DNA from: Comamonas suwonensis
GTDB lineage: Bacteria; Pseudomonadota; Gammaproteobacteria; Burkholderiales; Burkholderiaceae_C
NCBI RefSeq assembly: GCF_012844455.2
Contig: NZ_JABBCQ020000006.1
Coordinates: 124,001-188,000 of the forward strand
DNA: 64,000 bases
Direction: 5' to 3'
The notes beneath the pieces are model-generated. The model was given only the letters and a program-made list of their open reading frames with translations, ran no database searches and had not been told where the DNA came from. The translations under genes and the position numbers were made by a program. This document shows, one piece after another, positions 6,020-28,678 of the stretch. Position 1 is the stretch's first letter. Each line of letters starts with the position of its first letter.

Positions 6020-6129
6020 ATATTTTCAAAATATGCCTACTCGTCCGCGATAAGTGCTCTGATTTTTGAATATTCTCGTACTCGAAGCGCGTTAGCGATT
6101 GATCGAGAACAAGTGCACTCGCCATGAGA

Positions 6130-6161
6130 AAAGCCCCAGACCATTGCTGATCTGGGGCTTT
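6130..6161 (-). terminator. Rho-independent terminator left over from a disrupted tRNA-Phe gene
   Basis: Hairpin AAGCCCCAGA / TCTGGGGCTT followed on the minus strand by TTTTCT. It is nearly the same as the hairpin downstream of the intact tRNA-Phe at 28633 (28595-28626), which supports this being the original 3' flank of the tRNA used as insertion site. Confidence 0.75.
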
Positions 6162-6163
6162 AA

Positions 6164-6212
6164 ATTTGGTGGCCCGGGACGGAATCGAACCGCCGACACA
6201 AGGATTTTCAAT
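6164..6212. repeat. Left attachment repeat (attL-like): 3' fragment of tRNA-Phe
   Basis: A 49-bp direct repeat of 28630-28678 with a single difference (C at 6175, T at 28641). Bases 6167-6212, read on the minus strand, are tRNA-Phe positions ~31-76: the anticodon 3' side, variable loop, T arm, acceptor 3' strand and CCA. Identity to the tRNA stops abruptly at 6213, within the anticodon arm. An orphan 3' tRNA end at one boundary and an intact tRNA at the other is the standard signature of tyrosine-integrase insertion. Confidence 0.85.
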
Positions 6213-6879: not shown

Positions 6880-7599
6880 ATGAAAAGACTCGCTAAGCAA
6901 GCGCTCACAATCTCTATTCTCCTTGGTGCGATATCGGTTCAAGCACAAGAAGCTGTGACTGCAGATTTGGATAGCTGCATCAGCTCCGAAAAAATGAGCT
7001 CCACTGCAAAAGGTGCTGCAATTGGTGCCGTGACAGGGTTTCTTGGTGCTCTTGCTTCAGGCAAGCAAGATAAGGCAGCTCAATTGGCTTTGGCTGGTGC
7101 AGCAGTCGGCGGCATTGCAGGCTATGCAAGTGCCTACTACAACGCAGTTGCAACTTGCATGAAGAAAAACCCAGCTTGGATACCAGAGTCCAACATCGAA
7201 CGCAAAGGTAACTACAAAGCCATTGTTAAGGAGTTCAAATATAAGCCATCCCAAGGAGATATCTTTACCGTTCGCCCTCTGCAAATGCCTGCAACTATCT
7301 CGCAAGGCCAAAATCTTGAATTCCCAGCAAAATTTGTGGTCCTGACACCGGATGGCGGCGAAGCTCAGGCTCGAATCACTCGGAAGCTTTTTGTTGTTGA
7401 AGGCGACAAAGAAACCGAAGTCCCCTTCCCTGGTCACAGTACAACTGATCGCGTGCTCGAGAATGGTGAGCATGAAGAGTTGATACACATTCCCATGGGA
7501 GTTGATGTTCCTGCAGGTTCAAAATTCCGTTTTTCCTACAGTGTCTCTGTCAAGGGTCTGCCCGCTAATTCCGCCAGCGGCATTACGGTAGTCAAGTAA
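6880..7599 (+). CDS. Exported glycine-zipper protein, first gene of the tubulin-caspase cassette
   Basis: 239 aa. Residues 1-23 form a Sec signal peptide ending VQAQ-E, with no lipobox. Two glycine-zipper segments follow (GAAIGAVTGFLG at 45-56 and GAAVGGIAGYAS at 73-84). Such repeats normally pack into membranes or form oligomeric helices. The remaining ~140 residues look like a beta-rich domain without a name I can give. Two cysteines (33 and 93) flank the zipper and could form a disulfide in the periplasm. The ribosome site is weak. The next gene starts immediately after the stop codon with no spacer, so the two are co-transcribed. Function is unknown; an envelope anchor or pore-like component is an inference from the zipper only. 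Confidence 0.8.
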   Translation: MKRLAKQALTISILLGAISVQAQEAVTADLDSCISSEKMSSTAKGAAIGAVTGFLGALASGKQDKAAQLALAGAAVGGIAGYASAYYNAVATCMKKNPAWIPESNIERKGNYKAIVKEFKYKPSQGDIFTVRPLQMPATISQGQNLEFPAKFVVLTPDGGEAQARITRKLFVVEGDKETEVPFPGHSTTDRVLENGEHEELIHIPMGVDVPAGSKFRFSYSVSVKGLPANSASGITVVK

Positions 7600-8931
7600 A
7601 TGCTGAAGACCACTAAATTTTCTCTGATCGGTTTGGTGGTCGCCGCGTTGACCGGCTGCGCAAACCAGTCGATGCCAGGCTACCAGCAGGTCTATCAAAG
7701 CTACCAAATCCCAGATACCCTGATGCAAAGCGTGCAAGCCCGCTTCAAAGCAGAAGGACTTACCAGCGCAAAGGTTGCTCGAGATTCTGTTGGCCGCCTG
7801 CGCTTAGTCGGTAACTATCAGAATGATGACGAAGTAGAAAAAGCCTTCATCATCGCTCAATCGATTGTTGGCATTAAATCGACTTCTCCCTTCTACCCTG
7901 AAGGAGTTCAGAAATCCGCTTGGAATCGTGAATCAGCTACTGCTGTATCTAATTTTTTCAAAAATAAAAAATTACAAAAAGATTTACCACCTGGAAAGAA
8001 AAAAGCCATCGTTATTGGCATTAATAAATTTTTGGATAGCGCTCATTTGACCGATATTCAAGGTGAAGATGATGCCCGCCTGATGGGCATCATATTGGCC
8101 AATTATGGCTATGAAGTTATTTCTGTCTTGGGAGAGAAAGCAACCAAGACCAATATTGAGACACAGATTGCAAAGGTCAATGCTTCTTTGCAGCCAAATG
8201 ACAGTCTTTTCATTTATGTCTCAAGTCACGGGAATCCCCCAACACCGACACCAGAAGGCAAGGATGATCGGAGAATGTCAATCGCGGCTTATGACTCCGG
8301 CAACACGCATCCAAGCCAGTCTGTTGGACAAGATAAAACTTCTTATTTGCTAAATCTGCAAAAGACGTCAGTCAAAGACTCACTTATTCAAAACTTGGCT
8401 CAAAAGCCAACCGCTGTAACGCGTGTGATTGTGGATACCTGCTATAGCGGAGAAATCCTCAAAAACACCCCCTCCATTGGTTCCAATTACCAGAACTTTA
8501 TAAGCTCTGGAAAATTTGAAAAAGAGTCCGTTTCAATTGCTTCTTGGAGTGGAGAAAAATTTACAAGCAAAGGTATTTCTTTTATTGATGATTCAGAAAA
8601 ACCAAAAGTTTCCTCAGCAAATACCGGCGATTTTTCTTCTCGCAAAAATTACACATTTATTACTGCAACCAGTGCGGGGGAACTTTCTTATGGCCCATCA
8701 CCAAGTATTGGTACCTTTAATAGCCCACTGAATCAATCAGATGCGCTACGGGGCTCTTTTTTCACTCAATCGTTCATGGCTTACCTGAAAAATTACTCAG
8801 GGGATATTTCCAAGGCCTTTGAATCCTCTCGCCATTTCACTTCTTCCAAGGTCCTCACACAGAACCTCAAGCAAACACCTCAGCGCTTCAGCACTATCGC
8901 AGTCAATTTGGACAACATCGTTTCCAATTAA
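7600..8931 (+). CDS. Caspase-like (peptidase C14) lipoprotein with N-terminal BON-like domain
   Basis: 443 aa. A lipoprotein signal with lipobox ALTGC places acylated Cys20 at the start of the mature protein, so it should sit on the periplasmic side of a membrane. Residues ~38-100 have the pattern of a BON domain. From ~130 a caspase fold is readable: KKAIVIGINKF, EDDARLMGIILANYGYEV, then the catalytic dyad His210 in IYVSSHG and Cys281 in VIVDTCYSGE. Both catalytic residues are present, so an active cysteine protease is expected. Its GC is clearly below that of the host genes. It lies between the zipper protein and a DUF4384 protein; DUF4384 is often fused to bacterial caspase domains, which supports one pathway. 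The substrate is unknown. Confidence 0.88.
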   Translation: MLKTTKFSLIGLVVAALTGCANQSMPGYQQVYQSYQIPDTLMQSVQARFKAEGLTSAKVARDSVGRLRLVGNYQNDDEVEKAFIIAQSIVGIKSTSPFYPEGVQKSAWNRESATAVSNFFKNKKLQKDLPPGKKKAIVIGINKFLDSAHLTDIQGEDDARLMGIILANYGYEVISVLGEKATKTNIETQIAKVNASLQPNDSLFIYVSSHGNPPTPTPEGKDDRRMSIAAYDSGNTHPSQSVGQDKTSYLLNLQKTSVKDSLIQNLAQKPTAVTRVIVDTCYSGEILKNTPSIGSNYQNFISSGKFEKESVSIASWSGEKFTSKGISFIDDSEKPKVSSANTGDFSSRKNYTFITATSAGELSYGPSPSIGTFNSPLNQSDALRGSFFTQSFMAYLKNYSGDISKAFESSRHFTSSKVLTQNLKQTPQRFSTIAVNLDNIVSN

Positions 8932-8945
8932 CATCAGAGAAATTC

Positions 8946-9902
8946 ATGTCTAAAAAATTCATTAAACAAGCGCTGGCCATTGCGACCATGGCGGCCTGCA
9001 TGGGTGCACAAGCACAAGAGCCTGCATTTGCGGCCAAATCTTTGTTCTTTGGCGAAGATGGCAATGTCCAGGCTGTTGCAACCAGCAAGGTTGAAAGCGC
9101 ACCCAATGCGGTTGCCTCGAAAGAGGGCAAAACCATGGTCGTTTCAACCACAGAGAAAAAGCAAGTTGAGCGGAAAAAAGTCGTTGCGAAAAATTCCACG
9201 AAAGCCCAGCCCATTGGAGCAGCTTACTTTGTGCGCCTGAAGCGCAATAACGCTGCGCCACAAGATGTCTTGGCAACGCACGCGTTCCAAACTGGTGACA
9301 AATTTCAAGTGGGTTTGAAGGTCAACCGGCCCAGCTTTGTTTACATTTTCAACGAAGCGCCCGATGGCCAGATCACCATGCTGCATCCGCGTCCCGGTAA
9401 AAGTGCCGCGATTGACGCCATGGGCACGGTTTTTCTGCCAGGCAACGGCAGCTTCCAATTTGATGGACCTCCCGGCACGGAAAAGCTGCTGGTTCTGATG
9501 TCTCCCGACGAGGTCTTCCAGCCCAATACGGTTTTGCAGAAAATGAAGCCCGACCTTGTCACCCGCACGGTGTTGCCTCCGCCCTCCCAGCCGTCACCTG
9601 CCCACGCCAATGCTTTGGCAATAAGAACGTCAGCGCCAGCACAGAACAACTGCAGCTACACCGTGGCAGATGCGGGCAACTTTGCCAGCAAAGCCATTGT
9701 GTTCACTGAAGAGCCCCATATCGCTGCTACAGCGAATGACTGCCAAGTGAATACCACGCCAGCATTTGCCTCAAAGGCCATTGTTTTTGCCGATGACCCA
9801 CAACCGACGGCAGGCCAGCAAGTGGCCAGCTATGTGGTCAAGCCCGAAGGCACCAAGGGACAAGAGCCCCTGCTGCTGAAAATTCAGCTCGCTCACCACT
9901 GA
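8946..9902 (+). CDS. Exported DUF4384-domain protein with three FASKAIVF-type repeats
   Basis: 318 aa with signal peptide (cleavage near AQAQ-E, residue 24). Residues ~92-190 match the DUF4384 pattern (KFQVGLKVNRPSFVYIFN, then DGQITMLHP). This domain is known from bacterial caspase and serine/threonine kinase neighbourhoods. A short motif recurs three times: FAAKSLFFGED near 28, FASKAIVFTEE at 246 and FASKAIVFADD at 274, the last two exactly 28 residues apart. The repeats could be docking sites or processing sites; that is inference. The gene follows the caspase lipoprotein by 14 nt, so same operon. Predicted periplasmic. Confidence 0.8.
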   Translation: MSKKFIKQALAIATMAACMGAQAQEPAFAAKSLFFGEDGNVQAVATSKVESAPNAVASKEGKTMVVSTTEKKQVERKKVVAKNSTKAQPIGAAYFVRLKRNNAAPQDVLATHAFQTGDKFQVGLKVNRPSFVYIFNEAPDGQITMLHPRPGKSAAIDAMGTVFLPGNGSFQFDGPPGTEKLLVLMSPDEVFQPNTVLQKMKPDLVTRTVLPPPSQPSPAHANALAIRTSAPAQNNCSYTVADAGNFASKAIVFTEEPHIAATANDCQVNTTPAFASKAIVFADDPQPTAGQQVASYVVKPEGTKGQEPLLLKIQLAHH

Positions 9903-9968
9903 GCAGCGCTAGATACCCCCATGCATTTAACGCCCCCTTCTGCTGTGGGGCACATTTGTTGAAATCAC

Positions 9969-12900
9969 ATGTCAAACAATCACCTCATCGTTGGCTTGGG
10001 CGGCACCGGCGGCAAAGTCGTTCGCGCACTACGCAAAATCGTCAAGACCCATACCGATGGAAATGGCGTCAGTCCCTCGGAAGCTAACTTTGAATACGTC
10101 TATTTAGACACCTCAGAAGGCCTGCTCCACGAAACCGATCAATGGACAGTGCTGGGGCAAGACTGCTCACTAGCGCGCGCTCAGATTGGCATCTATACCG
10201 CCAGCGGCGTACGCCCAATCTTGCAAGATCCAGACTCCTATCCCGGCATGAAGGAGTGGATTGAACCGCGCAAGGTTTTTGATTTCATTGATGCTGGCAC
10301 AGCAGGGGCTGCACAAAAGCGCAAGCTTGGTCGCTTGGTGTTTGCCCAAAACGCCCGCATGATTTCGCAGCTGCTGGAAGAGCGCCTGCAATCCCTGGAA
10401 AGCAGCAGCAAAACTGCGCAAGCCACTATCCACATCATCTGCGGTTTGGCTGGCGGCACAGGAAGCGGCTTTGTGGCAGACACCGTCGCACAATTGCGTC
10501 GCCTGCGCCCCAATGATGCGGACTTCCGCATCCTTGTGTACGCACTGTTGCCTGACGAGGGCTCGACCTGGGTCAAATCCGTCTCGGGCTTTGGCACGTA
10601 CTACGCCAATGGCTATGCAGCTATTTCCGAGCTCAACGCCATGGCTGCACGCCGCTACCACCCGATCAACGTACTGGACGGCTCACGCATGAGCGGGTCT
10701 AAGTACTTCAACGGCTGTTACTTGGTGAATAACATCAATGAAAACCGCGTTCGCTTTGGCGTACAAGATGATGTGCCTCACATCATTGCGGAGTTTCTGT
10801 ACCAAAAAACGCTAAACAAGCGCTGGGAAGCCTTGGACCGCATCGAGAAGGGCGAAAACGACACCAATTTCATTGAAATGGATGACGGCCAAGCCGCGCG
10901 TGCCAAGCTGTTTATGAGCTTTGGTATCAAGCGCGTCGTAGTGCCCGAACATGAAATCAAGGAATATCTGGCGTACGGCTTTGCGGAGCAAGCAACCCGA
11001 CAGTTGATGTTCAACAACTTCCGCCAAGGCGAAGGCTTTGCCGACGAGCCCATCTATAAAGACTGGGGCGCAGAAGTTCGCAAGCCTGAAACCCGCGAAA
11101 ACTTGCTCATCAGTGATGCCCACCTCACGCTGGATCGCGGCATTTTGGAAGACGATGCCAAGGCAGGCTGGAAACTGATTGACGAGTACTGGCCTCAAGT
11201 AGCCGCTACTTTGGAAGAACAGATCAAAGCCGACAAGACCATCAAGGAAGCGGAGTGGATTCGCTCACTTCGCGTGCGCTTGTCGAGCGTGTATGACGAG
11301 ACTTTTCGTCGCTTGGGCGGCGTGCGCAAGTTCTACGAAATCAAGTCTCAAGCACGCCTGGAGATGGCGCGTCACATCGCCAGACAAATTGAGCGTGACT
11401 TCTTCAGTCGCTGGAATATTGGCGAATTGTCTTTGCTGCAACTGCGCCAGTACGTCGATGCGATCTTGGATGATCTGACACAACGCAAGAAAGAGTTTGA
11501 AGACAAAGCCCAAACCAGCTTGGCGGCCATGCAACGCCTCGAAGAAGATTTGCAGCGCCTGGTCAAAGACTTCAACGACGTTGGCACGCTGGGGCGTCTC
11601 TTCACCGACAAACGCGATACACGCTTTGCAGAAGCGCGCGAAAAACTGCAACTGCTTTTCTCCAAGAACACCTGGCGCGAAGGCTATATGTTTGGGCATC
11701 GCCTCATCCCGCTTCTGCTCGATGAGCTGACAGTCTTGCGCGGCAAGATTGATCAAATTCATGTGCAACTGAGCGAAGCTACCGACAGCATTCATACCGA
11801 GCAAAACAGCCGCCTGCGCACCGACAAGGAAGAGGTCTGCCAGACCCGCATCTTTGAAATGAATGCCGTGCGCGATCTGCTGCGCCGCATGACGCTGGAT
11901 GAGCGTGGCCAAATTGAACGCACACAACGCGTGCGCAAAGCCATCGTCGCGCTGGCGGGCGTTGAGGTTGATAGTTTCGAGAAACTGGCAGCTCGCCTGA
12001 ACCTCAACAATCTGATTACGACCCTGTCACAGCAAGCCGGCGAGATCACCGACGCCGCGCACACAGAACTGGCACACAGCGCACCCGTGATGCACGTCAA
12101 CATCATTGAGCGCCTCTCACGCCAATATGCAGTGGACTCTCAGCCGCTGAACCACTTTGTGGCCGACCTGTACCGCGAGGCAGGCAATATGGTGACATTC
12201 AACAAGGCCGAGATCGAACGCCGCGTTCCCGGCAATGAATCTGCCAGCGCCGGTCTGCAGCAAGCCATTTGCGTGATGCTGCCCGAGTGCGAAGATCAGC
12301 GCGAGTTCCGCCAGCACCTGCACAAGCTCTTTATTGACCAGAAGGATGCTGGGGCGTCTAACGTGTCCGTCATTGAAGGCCCGCTGAGCAACGAGATCGT
12401 CATCATCAAGGTCTCCTCACTCATGCCTGCTCGCTTTGTGGATGCCATGAGCTTCCTGAAGAGCCACTATGACGGCCTGTGCAAGATCCCTGACGAGCAA
12501 GTGCTACTGCACGGCGAAGGAAACGGCAGCAAGCTCCCTCCTCTGTTCGCCCCCACAGGCGTGCAATTGCAAGCACGCCGACAGCGCAAGCCATTTTTGA
12601 TGCTGGCGCGCTTGATGGGTTTGCTCAAAAACCGCGAAAACCCCACTACAGGCATGCCAGAGTGGTTTATTCAAACCACGGACGCTGACGGCCTCATCTG
12701 CATCAACGTCTTAAGCGGCGGCAATTCTTGGGAAAAGGTCTGGGAAAGCGAACAAACGCTCGCCTTGCAGCAAAGCATTGAAACTGCCGTCAAAGCCGGC
12801 ATTACCAGCGACTTCGTACACAAAGAGAAAAAAGATGAGCTCTACCAGCAGTTTGTGAAACACGTCAATGCGCGCCTGGAGCAGGCCAACCACAACGCAG

Positions 12901-12983
12901 AAGATGCCCAGTATCAAGAGCTGCGCGCCATGATTCCCCAAATCAAGGAGTTGGCCGGCATCCGTGCTGAAGCAACTGCCTAA
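9969..12983 (+). CDS. Large tubulin-like GTPase (Tubulin_2 type)
   Basis: 1004 aa, no signal peptide, so cytoplasmic. The N-terminus is a Rossmann-type nucleotide site, LIVGLGGTGGKVVRALRK (6-23), and residues 159-167 read GLAGGTGSG, equivalent to the tubulin/FtsZ signature GGGTGSG that binds the phosphates of GTP. The protein is more than twice the length of FtsZ; the ~600 residues after the GTPase domain include a charged coiled-coil stretch near 490-545 and no domain I can name. The spacing and size fit the poorly characterised prokaryotic tubulin-like family (Pfam Tubulin_2) rather than FtsZ, TubZ or BtubA/B. It begins 66 nt after the DUF4384 gene and is followed by a zinc-ribbon membrane protein. 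Likely the filament-forming or switch component of the cassette (inference). Confidence 0.88.
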   Translation: MSNNHLIVGLGGTGGKVVRALRKIVKTHTDGNGVSPSEANFEYVYLDTSEGLLHETDQWTVLGQDCSLARAQIGIYTASGVRPILQDPDSYPGMKEWIEPRKVFDFIDAGTAGAAQKRKLGRLVFAQNARMISQLLEERLQSLESSSKTAQATIHIICGLAGGTGSGFVADTVAQLRRLRPNDADFRILVYALLPDEGSTWVKSVSGFGTYYANGYAAISELNAMAARRYHPINVLDGSRMSGSKYFNGCYLVNNINENRVRFGVQDDVPHIIAEFLYQKTLNKRWEALDRIEKGENDTNFIEMDDGQAARAKLFMSFGIKRVVVPEHEIKEYLAYGFAEQATRQLMFNNFRQGEGFADEPIYKDWGAEVRKPETRENLLISDAHLTLDRGILEDDAKAGWKLIDEYWPQVAATLEEQIKADKTIKEAEWIRSLRVRLSSVYDETFRRLGGVRKFYEIKSQARLEMARHIARQIERDFFSRWNIGELSLLQLRQYVDAILDDLTQRKKEFEDKAQTSLAAMQRLEEDLQRLVKDFNDVGTLGRLFTDKRDTRFAEAREKLQLLFSKNTWREGYMFGHRLIPLLLDELTVLRGKIDQIHVQLSEATDSIHTEQNSRLRTDKEEVCQTRIFEMNAVRDLLRRMTLDERGQIERTQRVRKAIVALAGVEVDSFEKLAARLNLNNLITTLSQQAGEITDAAHTELAHSAPVMHVNIIERLSRQYAVDSQPLNHFVADLYREAGNMVTFNKAEIERRVPGNESASAGLQQAICVMLPECEDQREFRQHLHKLFIDQKDAGASNVSVIEGPLSNEIVIIKVSSLMPARFVDAMSFLKSHYDGLCKIPDEQVLLHGEGNGSKLPPLFAPTGVQLQARRQRKPFLMLARLMGLLKNRENPTTGMPEWFIQTTDADGLICINVLSGGNSWEKVWESEQTLALQQSIETAVKAGITSDFVHKEKKDELYQQFVKHVNARLEQANHNAEDAQYQELRAMIPQIKELAGIRAEATA

Positions 12984-13002
12984 GTCCATCACAAAAGAAA
13001 TC

Positions 13003-13752
13003 ATGTATCAATATAAATGCAAGTCCATTGGCGACTGCTCTGTGGCTAATAGCGGCGAGTACGTCAAAAGCGAAACCATGCTCAACGACCCTAAGTGCAG
13101 CGACTGCGGTTGTGCGCTAGAGCTTGTCGAAGGCAGCGGCAGCGGCGGGGGCAGCAAGAAAAGCGGGGCCTCCCCGAAGCTGGGGCCCATGATTGCGGCA
13201 GGCATTGCTGCCGTGGCCATCGCTGGCGGAGTTTCATGGTATTTGCTGGGCAGCAAGCCTGCCCAGAGCATCGCCATCATCCCCCCTTCCGCTGAAATAA
13301 TGGTGGAAGAAAAAGTGGTCACACCCACTGCAGAAACAGCTTCAAGCGGCCTAGCTCCTTCTGAGACCGAAACCTCTTTGGCGCGACGCGATGCCGACGA
13401 AAAGCTACGCCAAGGCGAATTCAGCGAAGCTGAGCGAAAAGCGGCCCGCTCAGCAGCCCTCGAGATGATCAAAGCTGCTGTTGCCAAGATGGGACAAGGC
13501 GACCTCAACGGCGCAGAGAAAGAGCTTCAACAAGCAAAGGAGCGTGATGCCACTGAACCGTTGATTTACTACAACTTAGCTATCGTGCACCTGCGCCAAA
13601 ACCAACCCGAAGAAGCACTGCGCCACATGGAAGCCTCTTTCATGGCTGGCTTCAAGCACTTTGAAGCCATGGACCAAGACACCGATATTGACCCTCTTCG
13701 CAAATCGCCCAAGTTTCAAGAACTGTTAAACATCTACCGCAAAAACGTGTGA
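13003..13752 (+). CDS. Zinc-ribbon, single-TM, TPR-like protein
   Basis: 249 aa using the ATG at 13003; an earlier in-frame ATG at 12964 would overlap the tubulin-like gene and only add residues before the zinc ribbon. Cys6, Cys12, Cys32 and Cys35 (with Cys37) form a probable zinc ribbon in the cytoplasm, followed by a Ser/Gly-rich linker and a transmembrane segment at ~58-82 (MIAAGIAAVAIAGGVSWYLL). The rest should lie in the periplasm: an acidic linker and a TPR-like helical domain at ~155-249 (YYNLAIVHLRQNQPEEALRH). This topology could carry a signal between the cytosolic GTPase and the exported caspase, which is inference. The stop overlaps the next start (ATGA). Confidence 0.8.
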   Translation: MYQYKCKSIGDCSVANSGEYVKSETMLNDPKCSDCGCALELVEGSGSGGGSKKSGASPKLGPMIAAGIAAVAIAGGVSWYLLGSKPAQSIAIIPPSAEIMVEEKVVTPTAETASSGLAPSETETSLARRDADEKLRQGEFSEAERKAARSAALEMIKAAVAKMGQGDLNGAEKELQQAKERDATEPLIYYNLAIVHLRQNQPEEALRHMEASFMAGFKHFEAMDQDTDIDPLRKSPKFQELLNIYRKNV

Positions 13753-14471
13753 TGAAAAAAATCCTGCGGGCATTGCCATTTACCATCCTTTTGGCTCTGG
13801 CGGCCTGCGGGAAAAACCTTGAATCTCGCATAGTTGAAGGCCACTGGGTTGCAGAGAATTTCCGCTTTTACGGTCTCAAGCTACCTATTGGCCCCGATCT
13901 GCAAATTGACGCCAAAAGTCTAAGCTTGAGCACTGGCTTGGAGCCGATTCCTTTAAACGCTGTAGAGGTTGATGGCAACGAAGTCACTCTTCAAACGTCT
14001 TTAGGGGTCGGCCTCGTTTTCAATTTTGAAAACGAGAACAGGATGTACTTCACCATCCCGATCTTGGGTGACCGTATCTACTATCAGCGCCAGCTCACTC
14101 CGTCTGTTATGCAACGCGACGTCCAGCAGGAGTCCCCCACAAAGCGCCAACCAAGCCAGGCAGAAGTAGCGACTTCCAATCAAACGCCTCGTGCACTGAG
14201 TCGCCCAGAACCAACGCTTCATACCGAGCACACAGCCTCACTAGCCACCTCACCATACCTACCAGCAACTCAGCCACAACCCAGCTACTTCACGCACGCG
14301 CTTGATTTGGTGCAAAAAAATCGCGTCAACGAAGCCATCCGTGCGCTCTCGGCAGCCCTGCAAAACACAGAAATTCAATGGAAAGAAATTGAGGCTGAGC
14401 CAGCCTTTTCTCAGCTCATTGAAGACCCACGCCTTGAGGTTTTGAGACAGAGATGGCAATCCAAGCCCTGA
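13752..14471 (+). CDS. Lipoprotein of unknown function, last gene of the tubulin-caspase cassette
   Basis: 239 aa using the ATG at 13752, which overlaps the previous stop as ATGA; a GTG one codon earlier is less likely. Lipobox LALAACG gives acylated Cys19. Residues ~20-110 look like a small beta-rich domain, 110-170 are a low-complexity Ser/Pro/Thr/Gln linker, and the last ~60 residues are helical (ALDLVQKNRVNEAIRALSAAL). The C-terminal pattern EDPRLEVLRQRW resembles the end of the preceding protein (DPLRKSPKFQELLNIY), so both may carry the same type of TPR-like module. No named family recognised. Confidence 0.75.
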   Translation: MKKILRALPFTILLALAACGKNLESRIVEGHWVAENFRFYGLKLPIGPDLQIDAKSLSLSTGLEPIPLNAVEVDGNEVTLQTSLGVGLVFNFENENRMYFTIPILGDRIYYQRQLTPSVMQRDVQQESPTKRQPSQAEVATSNQTPRALSRPEPTLHTEHTASLATSPYLPATQPQPSYFTHALDLVQKNRVNEAIRALSAALQNTEIQWKEIEAEPAFSQLIEDPRLEVLRQRWQSKP

Positions 14472-15057: not shown

Positions 15058-16299
15058 TCATACCCCCACTTTTGCATCTTCACGCCCCAGCATTTCCACC
15101 ACCAGGTTCCACATTGGCACACCTTTGCTTTCCAGCAATCGCTCGGGTGAACGGATGATCTTGGCCTCACTGCGAAGCTTAAAGCCCTCCAGGACAACCT
15201 CCCCTGCCCACTGCATCACTGCAGAAGTCTGTGCTGCGATGTGCTCGATTTCATCAATGGGCGCTTCCACCAAAAAGGCATCGTGAACAGGTGCGCAAAC
15301 TCGAACGCCGAGTTCAACGAGCCTGATATGCGCAAGGCGCATCATCTCGGCACCATTGGCCTGCATAGGAAAGTTCTGGATGCTGCGCACCTTGGTCACC
15401 GAAGTGATGTGCAGCTTCCAACCGAACACGGTATGCAAAGGGTTCCCAAGCATTCCGTAGTCCGCAACGTTCTGGCTCCATCGCCAGAAATCAGGGAAGG
15501 CGCTTTTATGCGCATTCAGCAGTCTCTGGGCTTCAGTCTCGGGAATGTTCAGCCTTAATGCCATGCCCGGCGCACTCATACCAAACAGTACCCCCAGTGC
15601 ACAAGTTTTGAAGCGTTCCCGCACGAGTGGATGGGTATGCTTAGTCGCCTCCGCTGGAACAGCACGAGCCATCTTTGCGAATGTCATGTAGAAGTCCTCA
15701 GACAGGTACGCTGCCTGCATCCGTTTATCGCCAGACAGCACTGCTGCGATGGCCAACTCTTGCTGACTGAAATCTACATAGGCAAGTGCCCAACCGGGTT
15801 TCGGCTGAATCAAGCCTCGCATCCATGCCGGTTGCCCGAAGATGAATTGACTGCTTCGCGGTTGATTTCTCCCCGTCAGAGAACTGAAAGGAAACAACGC
15901 CGTGCGATTGCGCCCATCAGCCCCCACTGCCAACTTCAACTCGTGCAGCGTAGCCAAGGTTTTTCGCAACTGTCGCAACGGCTCAATCGTAAGAATAGCC
16001 CGAGCCATGTCCTTGAATGAGTCGTCATCTAGGCGCAATTTGCCGCTGACAGAGCGCGGCCATTGAAGGCCTCGCTCAAGCAGATACTTCTCAAAGAGCG
16101 CAGCCCGGAAGCTACCCTGTTCATACACACCAAAGTCTCCATCGACTTGGCGGATCAGCTCCGCACGCAGGGTTCCTGTGCTTTGTCGAATGGCGTCGTA
16201 AAGCACCGAGTCAATGGGTGTGCCAAGCGTTTCGGTGGACGCCGCAGCCACTGCGTAGCGCCCGCGCAGCAATGCACGATCCAGATCGATCAACTCCAT
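15058..16299 (-). CDS. Family-A DNA polymerase, polymerase-domain polypeptide
   Basis: 413 aa. All three polymerase motifs are present: motif A ALAYVDFSQQELAIAA (Asp176), motif B RERFKTCALGVLFGMS (Arg227, Lys231, Gly240) and motif C APVHDAFLVEAP (Asp340). Motif C has Ala where E. coli Pol I has Glu; the metal-binding Asp is kept. There is no exonuclease domain: the matching 3'-5' exonuclease is the preceding gene, whose end overlaps this start by 10 nt in another frame. A strong ribosome site (GGGAGG, 6 nt upstream) serves this ATG. Phage- and plasmid-type enzymes I know of carry both domains in one ~600-aa chain; 174 + 413 aa adds up to that. Confidence 0.9.
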   Translation of the reverse strand: MELIDLDRALLRGRYAVAAASTETLGTPIDSVLYDAIRQSTGTLRAELIRQVDGDFGVYEQGSFRAALFEKYLLERGLQWPRSVSGKLRLDDDSFKDMARAILTIEPLRQLRKTLATLHELKLAVGADGRNRTALFPFSSLTGRNQPRSSQFIFGQPAWMRGLIQPKPGWALAYVDFSQQELAIAAVLSGDKRMQAAYLSEDFYMTFAKMARAVPAEATKHTHPLVRERFKTCALGVLFGMSAPGMALRLNIPETEAQRLLNAHKSAFPDFWRWSQNVADYGMLGNPLHTVFGWKLHITSVTKVRSIQNFPMQANGAEMMRLAHIRLVELGVRVCAPVHDAFLVEAPIDEIEHIAAQTSAVMQWAGEVVLEGFKLRSEAKIIRSPERLLESKGVPMWNLVVEMLGREDAKVGV

Positions 16300-20792: not shown

Positions 20793-21989
20793 ATGATGGC
20801 CACAAGGACCAAATTTCAATTCACGAATCGCAACATTGCAGCGCTACCCGCTCACGAAGCAAACTCATCAGCCAAAGCCGCTGAATATTCCGATCTGGCC
20901 GTCGTTGGACTTAAAGTCATCGTGGGTACCAACGGTATCAAGCGATTCGCTTTCCGCTATCAAACACTTTCCGGTCGAAAGCGCTATGCAACTCTGGGAA
21001 CGGTTGGCGCTCTCGATGTTGCGGAGGCACGCAAGCTAGCTCTGGAAATGCGGGCGATCGTTGAACGCGGAGGAGATCCGCTGGAGGATCGAGATCGCAT
21101 CAAAACCATGCCGACGTTTTCAGAATTCGTACGCCAGGAATACCTTCCATACGCTTACCAGACCAAGCGCTCAGCCATCAACGACGAATCTAAATTTCGC
21201 CTGCATCTTGAGCCCAAGCTCGGGCATCTGCGACTGTGCGACATCACGCCACGGGATATCCAAATGCATCATGCATCCATCAAGGAGAGTCATTCTCCAG
21301 GCACTGCGAATCGCCACCTTGCCTTGCTCAGCGCAACATTCCGCAAGGCGTTGGAATGGGGTCGAGCTGACCGAAATCCTGTCGCGGGCATCAAGGCTTT
21401 TAAGGAAAACAACCAGAAGCAGCGATTCCTTTCTCCCGAAGAGATTGGACGCTTGTTTGTAGCGATGGAGTCCGAGAAGAATCAGGTGGCCGTCGCAGCC
21501 TTGAAGCTGTTGCTATTGACCGGCACACGGCGACAGGAGGCATTGTCCGCACGCTGGGAACACATCAACCTGGATCAAGGCCAATGGTGGCTCCCTCAGA
21601 CCAAAAATGGCCGTGGTCGATACGTCACGCTGTCTGATGAAGTCAAAGCGCTCCTGATGGCATTACCAAGCCGTGAATCGGGTGGATGGGTGTTTCCTAG
21701 TCGCATCGAGGGCAAGGCCTTCCACAACCCACGCAAGGCGCTGGATCGCCTGCTTAAGGCCGCCGGCATCGAACACCTACGTATCCACGACCTGCGTCAC
21801 TCGTTTGCCAGTCTGGCGGTCAACTCGGGGGCTACGTTGTATGAGGTCCAGGACCTTCTTGGGCACAGCACCTCACAGATGACCCAGCGCTATGCCCACC
21901 TTGCTGACACTGGCCGGATACGTGTGGTTGGCAAAGTCGCGGAGATGGTCAGGACTGCCGTGGTCAATAGCAGCAATGCCTTGCACTAG
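20793..21989 (+). CDS. Tyrosine recombinase / island integrase
   Basis: 398 aa (ATG-ATG start, GCGAGGC upstream). Residues 1-~100 match the DUF4102-type N-terminal domain of P4-family integrases (LAVVGLKVIVGTNGIKRFAF), followed by a SAM-like core-binding domain and the catalytic domain. Catalytic set: Arg246 in LLTGTRRQEAL, a Lys in PQTKNGRGR near 270, His332 and Arg335 in HDLRHSFASL, His358 in LLGHSTSQ and nucleophile Tyr367 in QRYAHL. All are present, so the enzyme should be active. Integrases of this type commonly use tRNA 3' ends, consistent with the tRNA-Phe repeats, though it is not adjacent to either repeat. Confidence 0.95.
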   Translation: MMATRTKFQFTNRNIAALPAHEANSSAKAAEYSDLAVVGLKVIVGTNGIKRFAFRYQTLSGRKRYATLGTVGALDVAEARKLALEMRAIVERGGDPLEDRDRIKTMPTFSEFVRQEYLPYAYQTKRSAINDESKFRLHLEPKLGHLRLCDITPRDIQMHHASIKESHSPGTANRHLALLSATFRKALEWGRADRNPVAGIKAFKENNQKQRFLSPEEIGRLFVAMESEKNQVAVAALKLLLLTGTRRQEALSARWEHINLDQGQWWLPQTKNGRGRYVTLSDEVKALLMALPSRESGGWVFPSRIEGKAFHNPRKALDRLLKAAGIEHLRIHDLRHSFASLAVNSGATLYEVQDLLGHSTSQMTQRYAHLADTGRIRVVGKVAEMVRTAVVNSSNALH

Positions 21990-22263: not shown

Positions 22264-25263
22264 TTAAGTTGACAACAAAGATGTTGGTGAGATCTCATCG
22301 GAGATCCCTAAAACCGGGTTTGCGTCGTCGGCCAATTCATTGAGCACAGCGAACACACCGTCGAGGTCGTCGCGATATGAAGCGATGTAATTTGACATGA
22401 AGACGCATCGCTGGCTGGTCTCCAATTTCCGACCAAGGATATGCTCGCGATGTTGTTTCCAGAAGCGTCCCATCGCCTTGGCATCTAATCCACCAGGAAG
22501 TTCAGCCTTGGTTGCGACATATCCATCCGTTTCGCTGCCCGAATAGAAGGAGTTGCTTAGATTGGAAAGGCAGTAGTCAAGGAACAAAAAAACGTTGTTC
22601 TCATCGACATCCGGACTAAAGCATGTATTGAAAACGTAGTCGTTCATCAACTTGGCTATACCTCCGCCATCCTCAACTCCATCCTGGTCATAGTGTCCAC
22701 AACCCACACCTGAACCATTGGGGGGACGCGAGTTACTAAGCTGGTAGATCACAAAGGATTTAACAATAGAGCGCGCAGTAGCGACGCGCTGGGCAACGGT
22801 GATGTCACCATTGTTGGTCAAAGGGTCCTGTGCCGCATGTTCAAGCCGTGCGAAGGCTGTGCCAAGAAAGGCGCCAACTGGTGTTTCATTTGCTTCCGCA
22901 AAAAAGTTGCGCCTCGAATCGATGTAGGTTCGTTTGAACAGTGCAAAAACCCTTTGAGAAAGCTTCCTCATCCCCATCAATGCGAGCTTGCTGACTAGCC
23001 CAGACGTCGCAGCCGTCCTATCCTGATCAACGATGAGGGCTGTATGTAGGTTGTACAACTGCCCCTGGCGATCAGCAGAGCAATACAACCTGAATAACAT
23101 GAGGTCGTTCCAACCTAGGACTCCGCGATCAGGGCTAACAAGCCAGTCTAGGATCCCCTTTCCTTTATGGGCATGCTCTCCGAATATCCGCCACGCGATC
23201 TCGATAACATTCTCGGTAGTGTTAGGCAGCCTCCTCCCCTGTGTACGCCCCCAGCCGGCTCGGTCCAATAGTCGCAACAGGGAGTAGGTCGATCTCTGGC
23301 GCAATCCTCGATCGTCGTTCTCGAATGCTGAGTATTGGGGTAGATACGCAACGAGCGTCTCTATGGCGTCATGGGCGAGGGCACTGGTGAAATCGTGAGA
23401 CTGATTGACTAGCACTCTCCAAAATTGGTCATGCGAGTGCTCGCCTCGTTCCAATTCAAATTCCGCCGAGGTGAGCACTGAAGCAATGGAAGCACCCTTC
23501 CGAACTCGGTTTACGGCATCTTGGTACAGGACAAAAGTTTCCCGTGGTTCAGGCGTTGCGAAGCGCACGATAAGCTTGAGATAGCTCTCCAAGTTCCTGA
23601 GTTCTTGAAAATTGAAGCATGCGCGTGACCTTAGAACGGCTTCCTCGACATCGGAGCGTTCTTCAAGCCCCAACGCTCCAACGTCAAACAGCTGAGTCAA
23701 CAGGAACCCCGCAGAATCTTGTTGGTCCGCCACCATTGCCGAGAATGTCTCGGAGTTCTTAAAGTCTCTTTCACCGGACTTGCGATACACGGAGAAGTGA
23801 CCACTGCGCCCTTCCGTTTCTTCAGCGTAGATGCGCCTGAACAATCCGGGGTAGTTCAGATGCAGAAGCATGAGATTGATAAGGTCTCGCTTGTTGAAGT
23901 CGGTTCGACCCAGATTGGTCTTCTCGATCTGCATAAGAAGCATCGCGTTAACGAAACGCTTCAACTTACGCATGTCCCCAACAAGAGGCAGGTACTTTGC
24001 AGCTAAATCACCGTCCAGAATATCAGCCAATTCGCTGAGAACGGCACTAAGTTTGACCATAGTGTCAGAAGGTACCGAGCTCAGATGACTCTCAGCGCGC
24101 TCCCAATCGCGCCGTAAGAAGTCGCGAAGGCTGGAGCTGTCGACGAACAGGCTTAGCTTGACCGTCACAAATTTTTCTAGAAACTCGCGCGCTCTAGAAC
24201 CTTCTTCCTTGCCACCTGCAAGGAGCTCGGTGTCATAACAGAGGACATAGGTAGCCTGCGAGAGCTTGAATGTGCGCCTCGTTGCGAACAAGACGTTGTT
24301 CGTGGTCTTTGCGTCCAAGCGATCCAGGTCATCGATGACGATGATTACACGGCGTCCGATACGCCGAAGCACCTCGTCAATATCATCGAGAAGTTCATCA
24401 ACCGTCTCTTGCGAGGGCTCAAGTGAAAGCTTAAAGCCCAGGAACGAAACATCGGCCTTTCCCTTGATCAATCGGGAGTAGCGGGACGCCACCGGCTTGA
24501 ATTCAGGGGCAAAGACTTTGTTTTGGATGGTGGCAGTCAGGTCACGAATCAGACGGTCTGCAAGGTCTGGTTCAGAGGCATAACGGAGTGGCTCGAATCG
24601 ACATACGATGACCTGATCCTCCGCACTTTCCCAATAGCGCTCAGCAAGATTGATGAAGCTGGTCTTACCTACTCCCCACGGACCATCAACACCAAAGACG
24701 AGCCCTTGGTGAGCGTTGCTTGCCAGGACTGTATCTGCGAACGATTTTGCCTGGACCGCGCTCGCTAGCAGATCGTCCTTCCCGTCATCGATTTCTTCGT
24801 CCGCGATAAAGTACAGCTGCGAGGGCGCCGCCTTTGGCCTCGGCCATTGCTGCTGAAAGAGGGGGGACAACAGCACAACGCAGAGAAGGATGAGGACAAC
24901 AGGCGCCCAGTGAGGATCCGCAGATAAAAGAGCTACATGGAGTTTCGATAACCACGGCAAAGCCAGTTCGTTGGACCAAACTCCGACGCCCATCGCTACA
25001 AGCAAGTCAAGTCGAAAACTGCGGCCCATTCGTGCAGCAACCTCGAAAGCTTTTCGTTTGACCATATAAGTCAGACAGAGTCCCAGTCCGGCCAGAATTC
25101 CAGCGACCTTCGCCCAGATAGCAACGTCATTAATCTCTTGAGCGAACCTGGCGCTGAGATAGAAGGTTGACCGGCAGGTCTCCGCAATAAGAAAGCCAAC
25201 AACGAACAACCTGGCAAAAACCAGTAGCTCAGGCATCTTCATCGCCGGTTTGGTTTCGTTCAT
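22264..25263 (-). CDS. KAP-family P-loop NTPase with N-terminal membrane helices
   Basis: 999 aa from the ATG at 25263 (AGGGAG upstream). About four hydrophobic segments occupy residues ~10-150. Walker A GPWGVGKTS lies near 196 and Walker B VIIVIDDLDRLD near 307. The membrane segments plus this P-loop architecture fit the KAP family, named after eukaryotic Kidins220 and the phage-exclusion protein PifA. The C-terminal ~600 residues have no domain I can name and may be a sensor or effector. It is convergent with the integrase and divergent from the GHKL ATPase gene. KAP NTPases in islands are often linked to phage exclusion; the role here is inferred. Confidence 0.88.
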   Translation of the reverse strand: MNETKPAMKMPELLVFARLFVVGFLIAETCRSTFYLSARFAQEINDVAIWAKVAGILAGLGLCLTYMVKRKAFEVAARMGRSFRLDLLVAMGVGVWSNELALPWLSKLHVALLSADPHWAPVVLILLCVVLLSPLFQQQWPRPKAAPSQLYFIADEEIDDGKDDLLASAVQAKSFADTVLASNAHQGLVFGVDGPWGVGKTSFINLAERYWESAEDQVIVCRFEPLRYASEPDLADRLIRDLTATIQNKVFAPEFKPVASRYSRLIKGKADVSFLGFKLSLEPSQETVDELLDDIDEVLRRIGRRVIIVIDDLDRLDAKTTNNVLFATRRTFKLSQATYVLCYDTELLAGGKEEGSRAREFLEKFVTVKLSLFVDSSSLRDFLRRDWERAESHLSSVPSDTMVKLSAVLSELADILDGDLAAKYLPLVGDMRKLKRFVNAMLLMQIEKTNLGRTDFNKRDLINLMLLHLNYPGLFRRIYAEETEGRSGHFSVYRKSGERDFKNSETFSAMVADQQDSAGFLLTQLFDVGALGLEERSDVEEAVLRSRACFNFQELRNLESYLKLIVRFATPEPRETFVLYQDAVNRVRKGASIASVLTSAEFELERGEHSHDQFWRVLVNQSHDFTSALAHDAIETLVAYLPQYSAFENDDRGLRQRSTYSLLRLLDRAGWGRTQGRRLPNTTENVIEIAWRIFGEHAHKGKGILDWLVSPDRGVLGWNDLMLFRLYCSADRQGQLYNLHTALIVDQDRTAATSGLVSKLALMGMRKLSQRVFALFKRTYIDSRRNFFAEANETPVGAFLGTAFARLEHAAQDPLTNNGDITVAQRVATARSIVKSFVIYQLSNSRPPNGSGVGCGHYDQDGVEDGGGIAKLMNDYVFNTCFSPDVDENNVFLFLDYCLSNLSNSFYSGSETDGYVATKAELPGGLDAKAMGRFWKQHREHILGRKLETSQRCVFMSNYIASYRDDLDGVFAVLNELADDANPVLGISDEISPTSLLST

Positions 25264-25731
25264 TGATCGTTCTCCCTTGCGCAGCGCGATCAATTCGCGC
25301 TTTTGTTCATAATGCTGGCGACGATATCACTCTATATGTGCGCGAAAGTCTGGATTCACACTCCAAACGTTGGTCTAGCCTGAAGCGGTCGTTTAGACGC
25401 GCGAAACGAAAAGCTGCTTATGGCCGTTAGTACCTATGTGCCTGCTGTACAGATAACCGCCATAGGCCAAGCCGATGTCGCGATCGGAATGGCTGCTACC
25501 TGGCTCCTTCGCGACCTCACTTCATCTGAGCAGACGTCCGCTGCACACCTCAAACAGGCAACTTGCTGCATCTAACGCGCCAGCCAATCTAAACAGCAAC
25601 TCTCGTAAGCTGCGAATGGGTGGCATCGGCTTTTCCGTTGCGCGATGCGAGTGCGGTTGAACTAGAGGGGCTGAGCTGCTAGTTTGGCTACCGTTAGACT
25701 AGCTGGCAAATAGTCGAATTAGGAGGGCATC
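25264..25731. other. Divergent promoter region between KAP and GHKL genes
   Basis: 468 bp between two divergently read genes; both promoters should lie here. The plus-strand gene has a strong ribosome site (AGGAGGGCATC before the ATG at 25732). No convincing gene or operator is seen. Confidence 0.5.
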
Positions 25732-27690
25732 ATGGATCAGGCGTCACTGTTAGAAGATCTCCCTTATCACTACGATGAGAGATTTCTGAACAAATATGCG
25801 GGGAGCATCATCACTGATCCATCAACGGCAATCGTAGAGCTGGTCGCGAATTGCTGGGATGCTTATGCCACTGATGTCCAGATAACCCTTTCCAACAGGA
25901 AACAGGGCACACATTTCAAGATCGTTGATAACGGCAAAGGTATGACTCGCGAAGAGTTTGCCTTCATTTGGCGAACTTGGGACTACAACAGAATCAGTGC
26001 GCAAGGGCCAAAAAGCGATCCCCCTCGCGAAGTAAAGGGGCCTCCAAGATCAGTCTTTGGCAAAAACGGCAAGGGCCGCTTTGCCAGCTTCTGCTTTGCC
26101 AGCGAGTACCTGATTACCTCCAGAAAGGATGGCCAAGAATTCACTTGCAAGGTCAGTAGAACATCAACACGGCCCCTTGTGCTTGAGGAGGTTTCCTTCA
26201 CTGCTGAAGGTGTTGAGGGGCATGGGACGACCATCCACGCGACTGGGGAGATCCCATATCTCCAGCTCACTGAGGAGAAAGCCAGAGAGTTGCTTGGGAG
26301 CCGCTTCCTAGCCAACCCCGCATTTAAGGTGTTCATTGGAGGCCAAGCAATCACCTTCAACGACATCCCCAACTACCTCAGCAAGGCAGAGATTGAAGTT
26401 CAAGGTTTGGGAATTGTCACCATCTTGCAAATCGACACGAAGAAGGCTGATAAGACCACCAAGCAGCACGGCATTGCCTGGTGGGTTCAGGACAGAGCGG
26501 TAGGCCAGTGCAGCTGGAGCGCGAGCGACTACACCCGAATCCTTGATGGACGCACTACGGAAGCCAAGAGATACACCTTCATCGTGAAAGCTGACTTCTT
26601 GAACGAACACGATGCAGTCAAAGAAGACTGGAGCGGGTTCAAGGAAGACAGTGCGGTTTGGGTCAAAACCAGAGCAGCAGTCCAAGATCGCGTTTGCCAA
26701 ATTATTGACAGTACCGGCAAGGAAGAGCGAGCCAAGACCAAGGCAGCAGTCAAGGAGAAGGTAGGCTACACCATCAACAAGCTCTCGCCTATCAGCAAGG
26801 AACGAGTGACCAACTTTCTCGATGAGGTTGTTGATACTTGCCCCAACTTCGGGGAAACAGAGATCGTCCAACTGACGACCATTCTTGCAAAGCTGGAGCA
26901 ATCGAAATCCCGCTACGGTCTATTGGATATTCTTCACAAGTGCGGGCCTGACGACTACGACAACCTGCATGAAATTTTGACCGAGTGGAGCATTGGGATG
27001 GCAAAGCTGGTGCTGGACGAGATCCAGAACCGCTTGAGACTTATCAATGAACTTCGGATCAAGCTTCAGAAGGTTGGAATTGATGAAGTCCATGAACTTC
27101 AACCCCTCTTTGAGCGAGGGTTGTGGATGTTTGGTGCGCAGTTCGAATCTATCGACTTCACATCGAATGTGGGAATGACACAGGTCATCAAGTCAATCTT
27201 CAAAGACAAAGCAGGCAAAGGCACCCGCAACCGACCTGACTTCGTTGCTCTTCCCGATTCAAGCGTGGGCTTCTATGCCCGTCCCTCCTATGATGAGAAC
27301 CATGATGAGGATGGCGTTGCACACCTCGTAATCATCGACCTTAAGACAACAGGCCTACCACTCGGACGCAACGAGAAGGGACAGGTTTGGAAATATGTCA
27401 AGGAGCTTCGTTCTCGAGGCTATCTGAAGCCTACAGCCAGGGTGGATGGATTCCTGCTCGGAGACAAGATCGAAAACGGGGAAGCTGAGCCTGAGGCTCA
27501 GGGTGACTCAGTCACCATCCATCCCATGCTCTATAACACCATCTTAGTTCGTGCCGAAAAAAGGCTTTTGAACCTTCACAAGAAGGTCAAAGATGCCCCA
27601 TTCCTACTCGAACAACAAGAGTCGTTAAAGTCCTTCATGGAACCGATTCAGGTTGCTCAAATGGAGCTGGCAGAGAGCGATAACGCATGA
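25732..27690 (+). CDS. GHKL (Hsp90-like) ATPase with C-terminal PD-(D/E)xK-like region
   Basis: 652 aa. The N-terminal ATPase carries the GHKL motifs: N-box ELVANCWDAYA (36-46), G1 DNGKGM (66-71) and G2/lid VFGKNGKGRFA (108-118). The C-terminal third contains NRPDFVALP near 500, LVIIDLKTTGLP near 533 and GQVWKYVKEL near 550. That order (acidic residue, hydrophobic strand, DxK, then a helix with Q) matches PD-(D/E)xK nucleases such as the DUF4263/Shedu group. It therefore looks like an ATP-gated nuclease, which would suit anti-phage defence. The stop overlaps the next gene (ATGA), making a tight two-gene unit. The nuclease call is pattern-based. Confidence 0.85.
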   Translation: MDQASLLEDLPYHYDERFLNKYAGSIITDPSTAIVELVANCWDAYATDVQITLSNRKQGTHFKIVDNGKGMTREEFAFIWRTWDYNRISAQGPKSDPPREVKGPPRSVFGKNGKGRFASFCFASEYLITSRKDGQEFTCKVSRTSTRPLVLEEVSFTAEGVEGHGTTIHATGEIPYLQLTEEKARELLGSRFLANPAFKVFIGGQAITFNDIPNYLSKAEIEVQGLGIVTILQIDTKKADKTTKQHGIAWWVQDRAVGQCSWSASDYTRILDGRTTEAKRYTFIVKADFLNEHDAVKEDWSGFKEDSAVWVKTRAAVQDRVCQIIDSTGKEERAKTKAAVKEKVGYTINKLSPISKERVTNFLDEVVDTCPNFGETEIVQLTTILAKLEQSKSRYGLLDILHKCGPDDYDNLHEILTEWSIGMAKLVLDEIQNRLRLINELRIKLQKVGIDEVHELQPLFERGLWMFGAQFESIDFTSNVGMTQVIKSIFKDKAGKGTRNRPDFVALPDSSVGFYARPSYDENHDEDGVAHLVIIDLKTTGLPLGRNEKGQVWKYVKELRSRGYLKPTARVDGFLLGDKIENGEAEPEAQGDSVTIHPMLYNTILVRAEKRLLNLHKKVKDAPFLLEQQESLKSFMEPIQVAQMELAESDNA

Positions 27691-28436: not shown

Positions 28437-28594
28437 ACCATGATGCGCTGCCCAGCTGGATCACGTAAAACGAGCCATTTTTTCCTATGACTGCAATGGC
28501 CCCCGCAGCATTCCCACCAATCCCGGCATAGCGGCTATGCCAAAAACCGGCATAGCACCGGGAACCAAGGACTCTTTTCCTCAAGCACAAACAG

Positions 28595-28626
28595 AAAAGC
28601 CCTAGATCATTTCTGATCTAGGGCTT
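28595..28626 (-). terminator. Terminator of the proximal tRNA-Phe gene
   Basis: Hairpin AAGCCCTAGATCA/TGATCTAGGGCTT, followed on the minus strand by TTTCTG. Counterpart of the hairpin at 6130-6161. Confidence 0.75.
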
Positions 28627-28629
28627 CGT

Positions 28630-28678
28630 ATTTGGTGGCCTGGGACGGAATCGAACCGCCGACACAAGGATTTTCAAT
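28630..28678. repeat. Right attachment repeat (attR-like) inside tRNA-Phe
   Basis: 49-bp direct repeat of 6164-6212 (48 of 49 identical). It covers the 3' half of the intact tRNA-Phe gene. Integration reconstituted this tRNA and left the displaced 3' end at 6164. Confidence 0.85.

Follow-up and report, generated by a model that had tools for sequence, protein, structure and literature searches.

Within the 64,000-nucleotide stretch of the Comamonas suwonensis genome analysed here (contig NZ_JABBCQ020000006.1, positions 124,001 to 188,000; hereafter the window) lies a cassette of six plus-strand genes, A to F, which occupies positions 6880-14471 and combines a tubulin-like protein with a predicted exported caspase. 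The first-pass annotation of this DNA had described six genes on this strand with gaps of at most 66 nt, and all six open reading frames (ORFs) are found at the places it gave, the largest gap (66 nt) being that between C and D. Gene A (6880..7599) encodes a 239-aa glycine-zipper protein with a signal-peptide-like N-terminus, and gene B (7600..8931) a 443-aa lipoprotein with a BON-like part and a metacaspase domain, in which lipobox Cys20, His210 and Cys281 can be recognised. Gene C (8946..9902) encodes a DUF4384 protein of 318 aa, again with a signal-peptide-like N-terminus, and gene D (9969..12983) a 1004-aa protein of the Tubulin_2 / FtsZl1 type with the sequence GGTGSG at residues 162-167. 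Gene E (13003..13752) combines a zinc ribbon (C-x5-C-x19-C-x2-C), one transmembrane (TM) helix and TPR repeats, and gene F (13752..14471, for which the ORF tool starts at GTG 13749) encodes a lipoprotein with a weakly TPR_END-like C-terminus. For A, B, C and F, signal peptides and lipoboxes were recognised by eye in the sequence.

Profile searches with hidden Markov models largely bore out the domains proposed for these proteins. Matches above the Pfam cut-offs were obtained for Tubulin_2 in D (E-value 4.6e-53; 181.2 bits against a curated cut-off of 27), Peptidase_C14 in B (7.3e-18; 65.5 bits against 21.4), DUF4384 in C (6.5e-13) and TPR_2 in E (4.9e-7), whereas Gly-zipper_YMGG in A (2.1e-5) and the YscD BON-like match in B (0.0015) stayed below them, and F had no Pfam match. 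Among the NCBIfam models, TPR_END_plus matched E above its cut-off and F weakly, and the glycine-zipper part of OmpA-type lipoprotein models weakly matched A. For gene E the ATG at 13003 is a more likely start than the GTG at 12964, as its homologues begin at the equivalent position, and the D-E spacing would therefore be 19 nt. A further correction concerns the ATGA overlap of the earlier layout, since the E-F junction reads TGATG. A tRNA-Pro called inside gene A was taken as spurious.

A profile search of genome contigs with a 24-row tubulin alignment yielded 30 loci from 76 stretches matching a peptide pattern; this search favours the near clade because exact patterns were required. Fifteen of the loci (L009-L023) are relatives of the six-gene type and belong to Agitococcus, Burkholderia, Paraburkholderia, Caballeronia, Janthinobacterium, Massilia, Duganella, Zoogloea and metagenome-assembled genomes (MAGs). 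The order A-B-C-D-E of the window recurs in 13 of 13 loci with enough contig (with D in two pieces in L021), and C-D-E is kept in all 15; a homologue of A stands upstream of the caspase in each of the 13 loci whose contig extends that far, and one of F was recognised in 11 of the 15. The flanking genes are mostly not common among these loci, and the recurrence of the gene order in distant genera points to more than chance. By reading, all six genes are also present on a 1.09-Mb Paraburkholderia plasmid (L053); L052 was not counted as independent. The position of F enters unread bases in L011, and an apparent fusion of E and F in that locus was rejected because it crosses them. In two Janthinobacterium loci (L012, L015) a gene of one cluster follows E in the place of F, encoding a MORN-repeat protein in L012. 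The cassette of L023, from a MAG titled Chitinophaga pinensis, nests with that of Zoogloea and probably lies on a misbinned contig.

A second arrangement was found in Methylococcaceae (L027-L031, L033), where the DUF4384, caspase, tubulin and zinc-ribbon genes are arranged differently and interspersed with two additional genes; L038 shows the same type of arrangement up to its contig end. In a tubulin tree from which L021 and L038 were left out, the six-gene type and the methylotroph type form separate branches (95/100 and 100/100, respectively), while several other rows are long branches of unsure placement. The distances among the A, B, C and E proteins track those of D across 13 loci (r = 0.78-0.96; L014, L017 and L021 left out), and with the window and L009 removed the 11 remaining loci give r = 0.87-0.92, a value reached in none of 999 permutations. 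The six genes thus form one conserved unit with parallel descent: the single system that had been suggested is borne out both by gene order across genomes and by partner distances that follow those of the tubulin.

Protein D can be placed in the FtsZl1 / Tubulin_2 family by its domain, its GTP loop and its predicted C-terminal helices. The GGTGSG motif is invariant in 24 of 24 aligned homologues, and the loop GG(G/T)TG(S/T)G occurs in 119 of the best 120 of 792 homologues. In the structural model, long helices at residues 489-536 and 549-615 are followed by a mixed helix/strand part, which would agree with the long coiled coil and mostly helical C-terminal part that characterise FtsZl1. To our knowledge, no molecular function has been established for the FtsZl1 tubulins.

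A constant companion of this tubulin is the gene directly behind it, which encodes four spaced cysteines followed by one hydrophobic helix. The cysteine spacing is mostly C-x5-C-x(16-19)-C-x2-C and wider in a few proteins. When every ORF of at least 60 aa starting between -120 and +300 nt from the tubulin end was examined with a fixed pattern, ribbon and TM helix were found in 32 of 32 evaluable clade loci (the window, L009-L037, L047 and L053); the frame is short in L035 and the contig ends inside the adaptor in L032, and the count left out L038, where the tubulin leaves the contig, and the broken copy L050. Among 461 other non-overlapping genes the only match was the adaptor of L021 itself, which follows a tubulin broken in that locus; this gives 0 of 460 for the control. 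The zinc-ribbon membrane protein that had been noticed at the single locus is therefore a constant partner. All four cysteines are invariant in 17 of 17 aligned adaptors, and the net charge before the TM helix exceeds that after it in 19 of 23 E-type proteins, which fits a ribbon on the inside. The adaptor as a trait of all Tubulin_2 proteins was rejected, as the same pattern matched 0 of 8 outgroup loci; cysteine-rich neighbours with another spacing are present in two of them (L102, L103).

In its outer part the adaptor varies: it carries TPR in the cassette and the methylotrophs, PBP_like_2 and OmpA domains in L037 and small domains in L024. In L025 the outer part is vWA-like in that it clusters with the VWA protein of L034, with no Pfam vWA match there. 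Clustering places ABC ATPase, FtsX permease and FGE-sulfatase families among the genes that follow in L025, L026 and L034, though not every family in every locus, and an FGE protein lies near the tubulin in L036; these four loci make up a sister type that has no caspase in the stretch examined.

By its C14 domain and His-Cys dyad, protein B belongs with the metacaspases or orthocaspases of family C14. In an alignment without L014 and L017, the lipobox Cys, His and Cys are invariant in 21 of 21 B proteins, and among the best 120 of 262 homologues the SHG motif is present in 120 and the Cys motif in 118, one of the two misses being a 257-aa fragment. The intact GTP loop and catalytic residues that had been noted in D and B are thus kept in their homologues. 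The model of B comprises an alpha/beta part (residues 39-105), a p20 (134-290) and a p10 (from 350), both of the latter mostly confident, separated by a linker (292-348) that is modelled with a pLDDT (predicted local distance difference test) below 50; by fold it comes closest to a Geobacter protein, MALT1 and metacaspases. In Escherichia coli, an Ala directly after the lipobox Cys directs a lipoprotein to the outer membrane; this residue is found in 21 of 21 B proteins, and the rule would send B there. Two further positions are invariant, a Ser at His-2 and an Asp at Cys-2, and by analogy with the plant metacaspase AtMC4, whose Lys pocket includes residues at these positions according to the available part of PMC7206013, their presence is suggestive of cleavage after Lys or Arg.

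A caspase was detected by profile near the tubulin in 25 of 33 clade loci (the window, L009-L038, L047 and L053), the contig ending too early for evaluation in two (L017, L032). The caspase of the Bacteroidota locus L024 has 374 aa and an N-terminus that resembles a signal peptide, and in genome G264, of 5.4 Mb, three of four caspases lie within about 9 kb of the sole tubulin. This last locus (L047/L105) has three caspases with signal-peptide-like starts, and DUF4384 and OmpA-like genes, around the one tubulin, as well as two zinc-ribbon/TM proteins, one of them with an F-like domain by eye, and, again by eye, sigma-factor-like genes in the vicinity. The exported caspase module can stand alone as well: in L106 (genome G083) a BON-caspase has glycine-zipper, OmpA-like and sigma-like neighbours (by eye), and no tubulin is present in the stretch.

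Proteins B and C have a short lysine motif in common, approximately [FY]-x-[SA]-K-[AGS]-[ILM]-x-F-x-[DE]-[DE]. It occurs once in B, in the linker between p20 and p10 (residues 321-332, FTSKGISFIDDS, positions 8560..8595 of the plus strand), where Lys324 lies 43 residues after Cys281. C has three copies, also on the plus strand, one directly after the signal peptide (residues 28-39, FAAKSLFFGEDG, 9027..9062) and two near the C-terminus (residues 246-257, FASKAIVFTEEP, 9681..9716, and residues 274-285, FASKAIVFADDP, 9765..9800). The core [SATG]K[AGSD][ILVM] was found in 22 of 22 cassette and methylotroph caspases, at Cys+43 in 16 of them, and the linker lysine stands at Cys+43 or +44 in 111 of the 118 caspases that have the Cys motif among the best 120 of 262; three of the seven others have a proline before the lysine. 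Among the best 120 of 178 homologues of C, the core is present at the first site in 120 and at all three in 117. A pattern of the acid type matched 23 of 23 cassette C proteins, 0 of 69 A, D, E and F proteins and 1 of 246 other neighbours (75,539 aa). With a slightly stricter motif, shuffled C proteins gave a mean of 0.3 matches against 46 in the real ones, and shuffled B proteins 0.39 against 10. Conservation is 0.86, 0.64 and 0.83 at the three sites of C against 0.33-0.38 between them, and the residues that are conspicuous in B are Lys324 (0.96) and Ile326 (0.97).

The acidic motif as a general property of DUF4384 was rejected, since 28 of the 29 DUF4384 proteins taken from elsewhere in the order do not have it (29 of 30 fetched loci gave a match to the domain); the sole acid-type match among the 29 is a caspase-DUF4384 protein of G264 that adjoins a tubulin. 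Nor is the motif general to caspases, as the BON-caspase of L106 is without the Lys form and has an Arg-containing TRSL in the matching region. A search of the window's genome for further exported targets with a relaxed DNA pattern gave 46 matches (control 11), none convincing among the 30 inspected, of which 16 were in frame, two of those 16 having a hydrophobic N-terminus by a crude test.

Several known systems resemble parts of the cassette. The FtsZl1 family and its predicted membrane-remodelling operons were described by Makarova and Koonin in 2010 (PMC2875224), who name vWA, P-loop GTPase, kinase and OmpA proteins as partners. The cassette is similar in the Tubulin_2 domain, GTP loop, long helices and further C-terminal part of D and in its exported or membrane partners; it differs in having a caspase, a DUF4384 protein and a zinc-ribbon/TM adaptor, and no vWA, P-loop GTPase or OmpA match was found by Pfam in the six genes (E 0.001). 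The words 'caspase' and 'zinc' are not found in the main text of that paper. As far as the accessible part of PMC7206013 goes, B resembles the plant type II metacaspase AtMC4 in its p20-linker-p10 order, its conserved linker lysine and the Ser and Asp of the pocket; in AtMC4 the linker lysine occupies the active site and is cleaved when the enzyme is activated. Unlike AtMC4, as described there, B is a predicted exported lipoprotein with a BON-like domain and has in C a partner with three copies of the linker motif. DUF4384 and FGE-sulfatase are accessory domains of bacterial orthocaspases in the portions consulted of PMC8283722 and PMC3501461; compared with the proteins treated in those portions, caspase and DUF4384 here reside in distinct exported proteins of a tubulin operon. 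The main text of PMC3501461 mentions neither 'tubulin' nor 'FtsZ', that of PMC8283722 does not use 'tubulin', and autocleavage terms looked for in PMC7935541 were not found.

The plasmid loci of Thermus and Meiothermus (L054, L055) likewise have a Tubulin_2 gene in a multigene, possibly defensive locus, but differ in that no caspase is annotated in the stretch, no adaptor is found by the pattern and the tubulin lies on a distant tree branch; no vWA or Lon-protease-type match, as would be expected from their vWA and brxL genes, was found in the six genes or ten scanned neighbours. Searches of the open-licence literature, read as listings and openings of abstracts apart from the papers cited, turned up no tubulin-caspase system. 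Since the vWA, GTPase and OmpA partners of 2010 are not found among the six genes, the combination of tubulin, caspase and ribbon adaptor appears to be new relative to this literature.

The conserved order and parallel descent of the genes, the intact catalytic and GTP-loop residues, the ribbon/TM neighbour and the lysine motif common to B and C are all observed. To explain them we propose, with even chances in our estimate, a transmembrane switch in which a cytosolic tubulin-family GTPase acts through the zinc-ribbon adaptor on a periplasmic caspase. In the cytosol, the zinc ribbon of E would sense the polymer or nucleotide state of the tubulin, and the periplasmic TPR end of E, together with F, would meet B. 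The linker of the caspase would keep the enzyme inactive, Lys324 lying in the active site like Lys225 in AtMC4; once activated, the enzyme would cut after Lys324 and at the three corresponding sites in C, so that C would be both substrate and competitor. Protein A and the BON-like part of B may hold the complex at the envelope, and lysis, shedding, envelope repair or defence are candidate final outputs. The zymogen lock and the cleavage of C are suggested by the linker lysine of AtMC4 and the pocket residues, and the tubulin as controlling input by the zinc-ribbon adaptor.

A number of points weigh against this switch. We infer the contacts D-E, E-B and B-C, and the adaptor pattern and motif patterns were composed after examples had been seen. 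The model of D is middling (pLDDT 77.5; pTM, the predicted template modelling score, 0.55) and uninformative on filaments. Six of the 33 clade loci (L025, L026, L034-L037) have no caspase in the stretch examined, so that the caspase is not the only partner of the tubulin. As to the motif, six methylotroph caspases have the lysine at Cys+76 to +83, the acid-type pattern matches only 11 of 22 B proteins, and the bare core is common, occurring somewhere in 16 of the 29 other DUF4384 proteins. The tail of C after the third site is also conserved (0.66), and the linker of B before the motif is about as conserved as the motif (0.59 against 0.60); B alone is therefore no proof of a short motif, and its lysine may be structural or part of a docking strand.

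This last alternative can be extended to both proteins: the caspase linker and C would bind the same surface through a common docking strand, C being a tethered inhibitor or scaffold. The succession of aromatic, Ser/Ala, Lys, small, hydrophobic, Phe and acidic residues would suit a beta-strand, the linker upstream of the motif is conserved in B, and the caspase-DUF4384 fusion of G264 has a like sequence near its end. We nevertheless regard this possibility as doubtful, given that the near-invariant residues are the Lys and the Ile, that the linker is modelled as disordered and its lysine stands at a fixed step from the Cys, and that, in the available part of PMC7206013, the first cut of AtMC4 is also at the linker lysine.

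The surroundings of the cassette bear on what the transmembrane switch might serve. The cassette stands at one end of a genomic island of about 22 kb (6127-28678) in tRNA-Phe. On the left an attachment-like repeat (6127..6212, no strand assigned), which duplicates the 3' end of tRNA-Phe together with its flanking sequence, is 90.7% identical over 86 bp to the right copy (28593..28678, likewise without strand), which lies in and beside the tRNA-Phe gene at 28633-28708; the tyrosine integrase of the island is encoded at 20793..21989 on the plus strand (Phage_integrase, 1.1e-32). A congener, G420, has the same cassette at the same site, in a block of 8,436 bp with 99.8% identity against 97.3% and 95.1% for the flanks, and on these values the block has probably moved recently between the two organisms. 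The island of G420 is shorter; in our own reading of ORFs of at least 80 aa, the cassette is accompanied there by two small ORFs (115 and 105 aa) and a pair of transposase-like ORFs. Other genes of the window's island include a KAP-family NTPase (22264-25293) with a PifA-type match in PADLOC (7.2e-31), a HATPase protein followed by a weak AbiJ-match protein (25732-28436, adjoining tRNA-Phe) and a family A DNA polymerase with an RTasPolA-type PADLOC match (15058-16299).

The cassette is also rare. A relative of D was found in four of 399 genomes of the order, the window's own included; the other three are full length (G264), broken (G294) and weak (G240). The broken, shortened relative (L050 in G294) comes from the family to which the window's organism also belongs. 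At E 1e-10, 49 of the 399 genomes had a match to a profile built from the cassette caspase, with 573 bits in the own genome and 67 in the next, nearly all matches being to the caspase domain alone; within the genus the caspase occurs in two of 53 genomes, the own included. Tubulin_2 was found in eight of 398 genomes of the phylum. Carriage by phages was rejected, as none of 47 pattern-matching stretches of viral contigs encodes a relative of D.

An envelope role without tubulin signalling, in which the tubulin would organise membrane parts, as Makarova and Koonin proposed, and the caspase would mature C and other exported proteins at the surface, draws on the vWA-like, OmpA/PBP- and ABC/FtsX/FGE-type partners of related loci and on the BON-like, glycine-zipper and lipoprotein parts of the cassette itself; moreover, a Tubulin_2 mutant of Synechocystis is impaired in phototaxis and the protein has been placed with pilus proteins, according to the part of PMC9880817 available to us. 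The rarity just described argues against a general housekeeping role, the search for exported targets found none convincing outside the cassette, and we think this explanation unlikely.

As for defence, which the first-pass annotation had thought to fit, the island does contain defence-like genes, but the cassette itself yields little: PADLOC-DB 2.0.0 gave as its best match over the six genes a caspase model for B (13.7 bits, E 0.0067) and nothing for A, C, D, E and F, which is no confident match to a known defence system. Anti-phage abortive infection, in which infection would perturb the tubulin and the caspase would kill the cell from the periplasm, would suit a patchy, mobile element (the caspase is present in one of 52 other genomes of the genus) in a tRNA-Phe island with an integrase and with neighbours resembling PifA/KAP, AbiJ (weakly) and RTasPolA, as well as the distant Tubulin_2 genes of Thermus and Meiothermus plasmids that adjoin vWA and brxL genes; it is rather improbable in view of the lone caspase-domain match, of the G420 island, which on our reading has the cassette without those defence-like genes, and of the viral contigs, where no tubulin relative was found.

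The transmembrane switch proposed above may be one case of a wider scheme, a tentative view to which we give somewhat less than even chances: the tubulins of this clade would be the cytosolic half of a general relay, in which a universal ribbon/TM plug carries swappable outer heads, and the output here would be a periplasmic metacaspase zymogen whose activation site has been copied three times into a partner substrate. An adaptor behind every evaluable tubulin of the clade offers a concrete and testable answer to the question of FtsZl1 function, and the common lysine motif points to C as a candidate natural substrate of a bacterial caspase. Taken as a whole, and if true, these would amount to a tubulin-family protein that controls proteolysis in another compartment.

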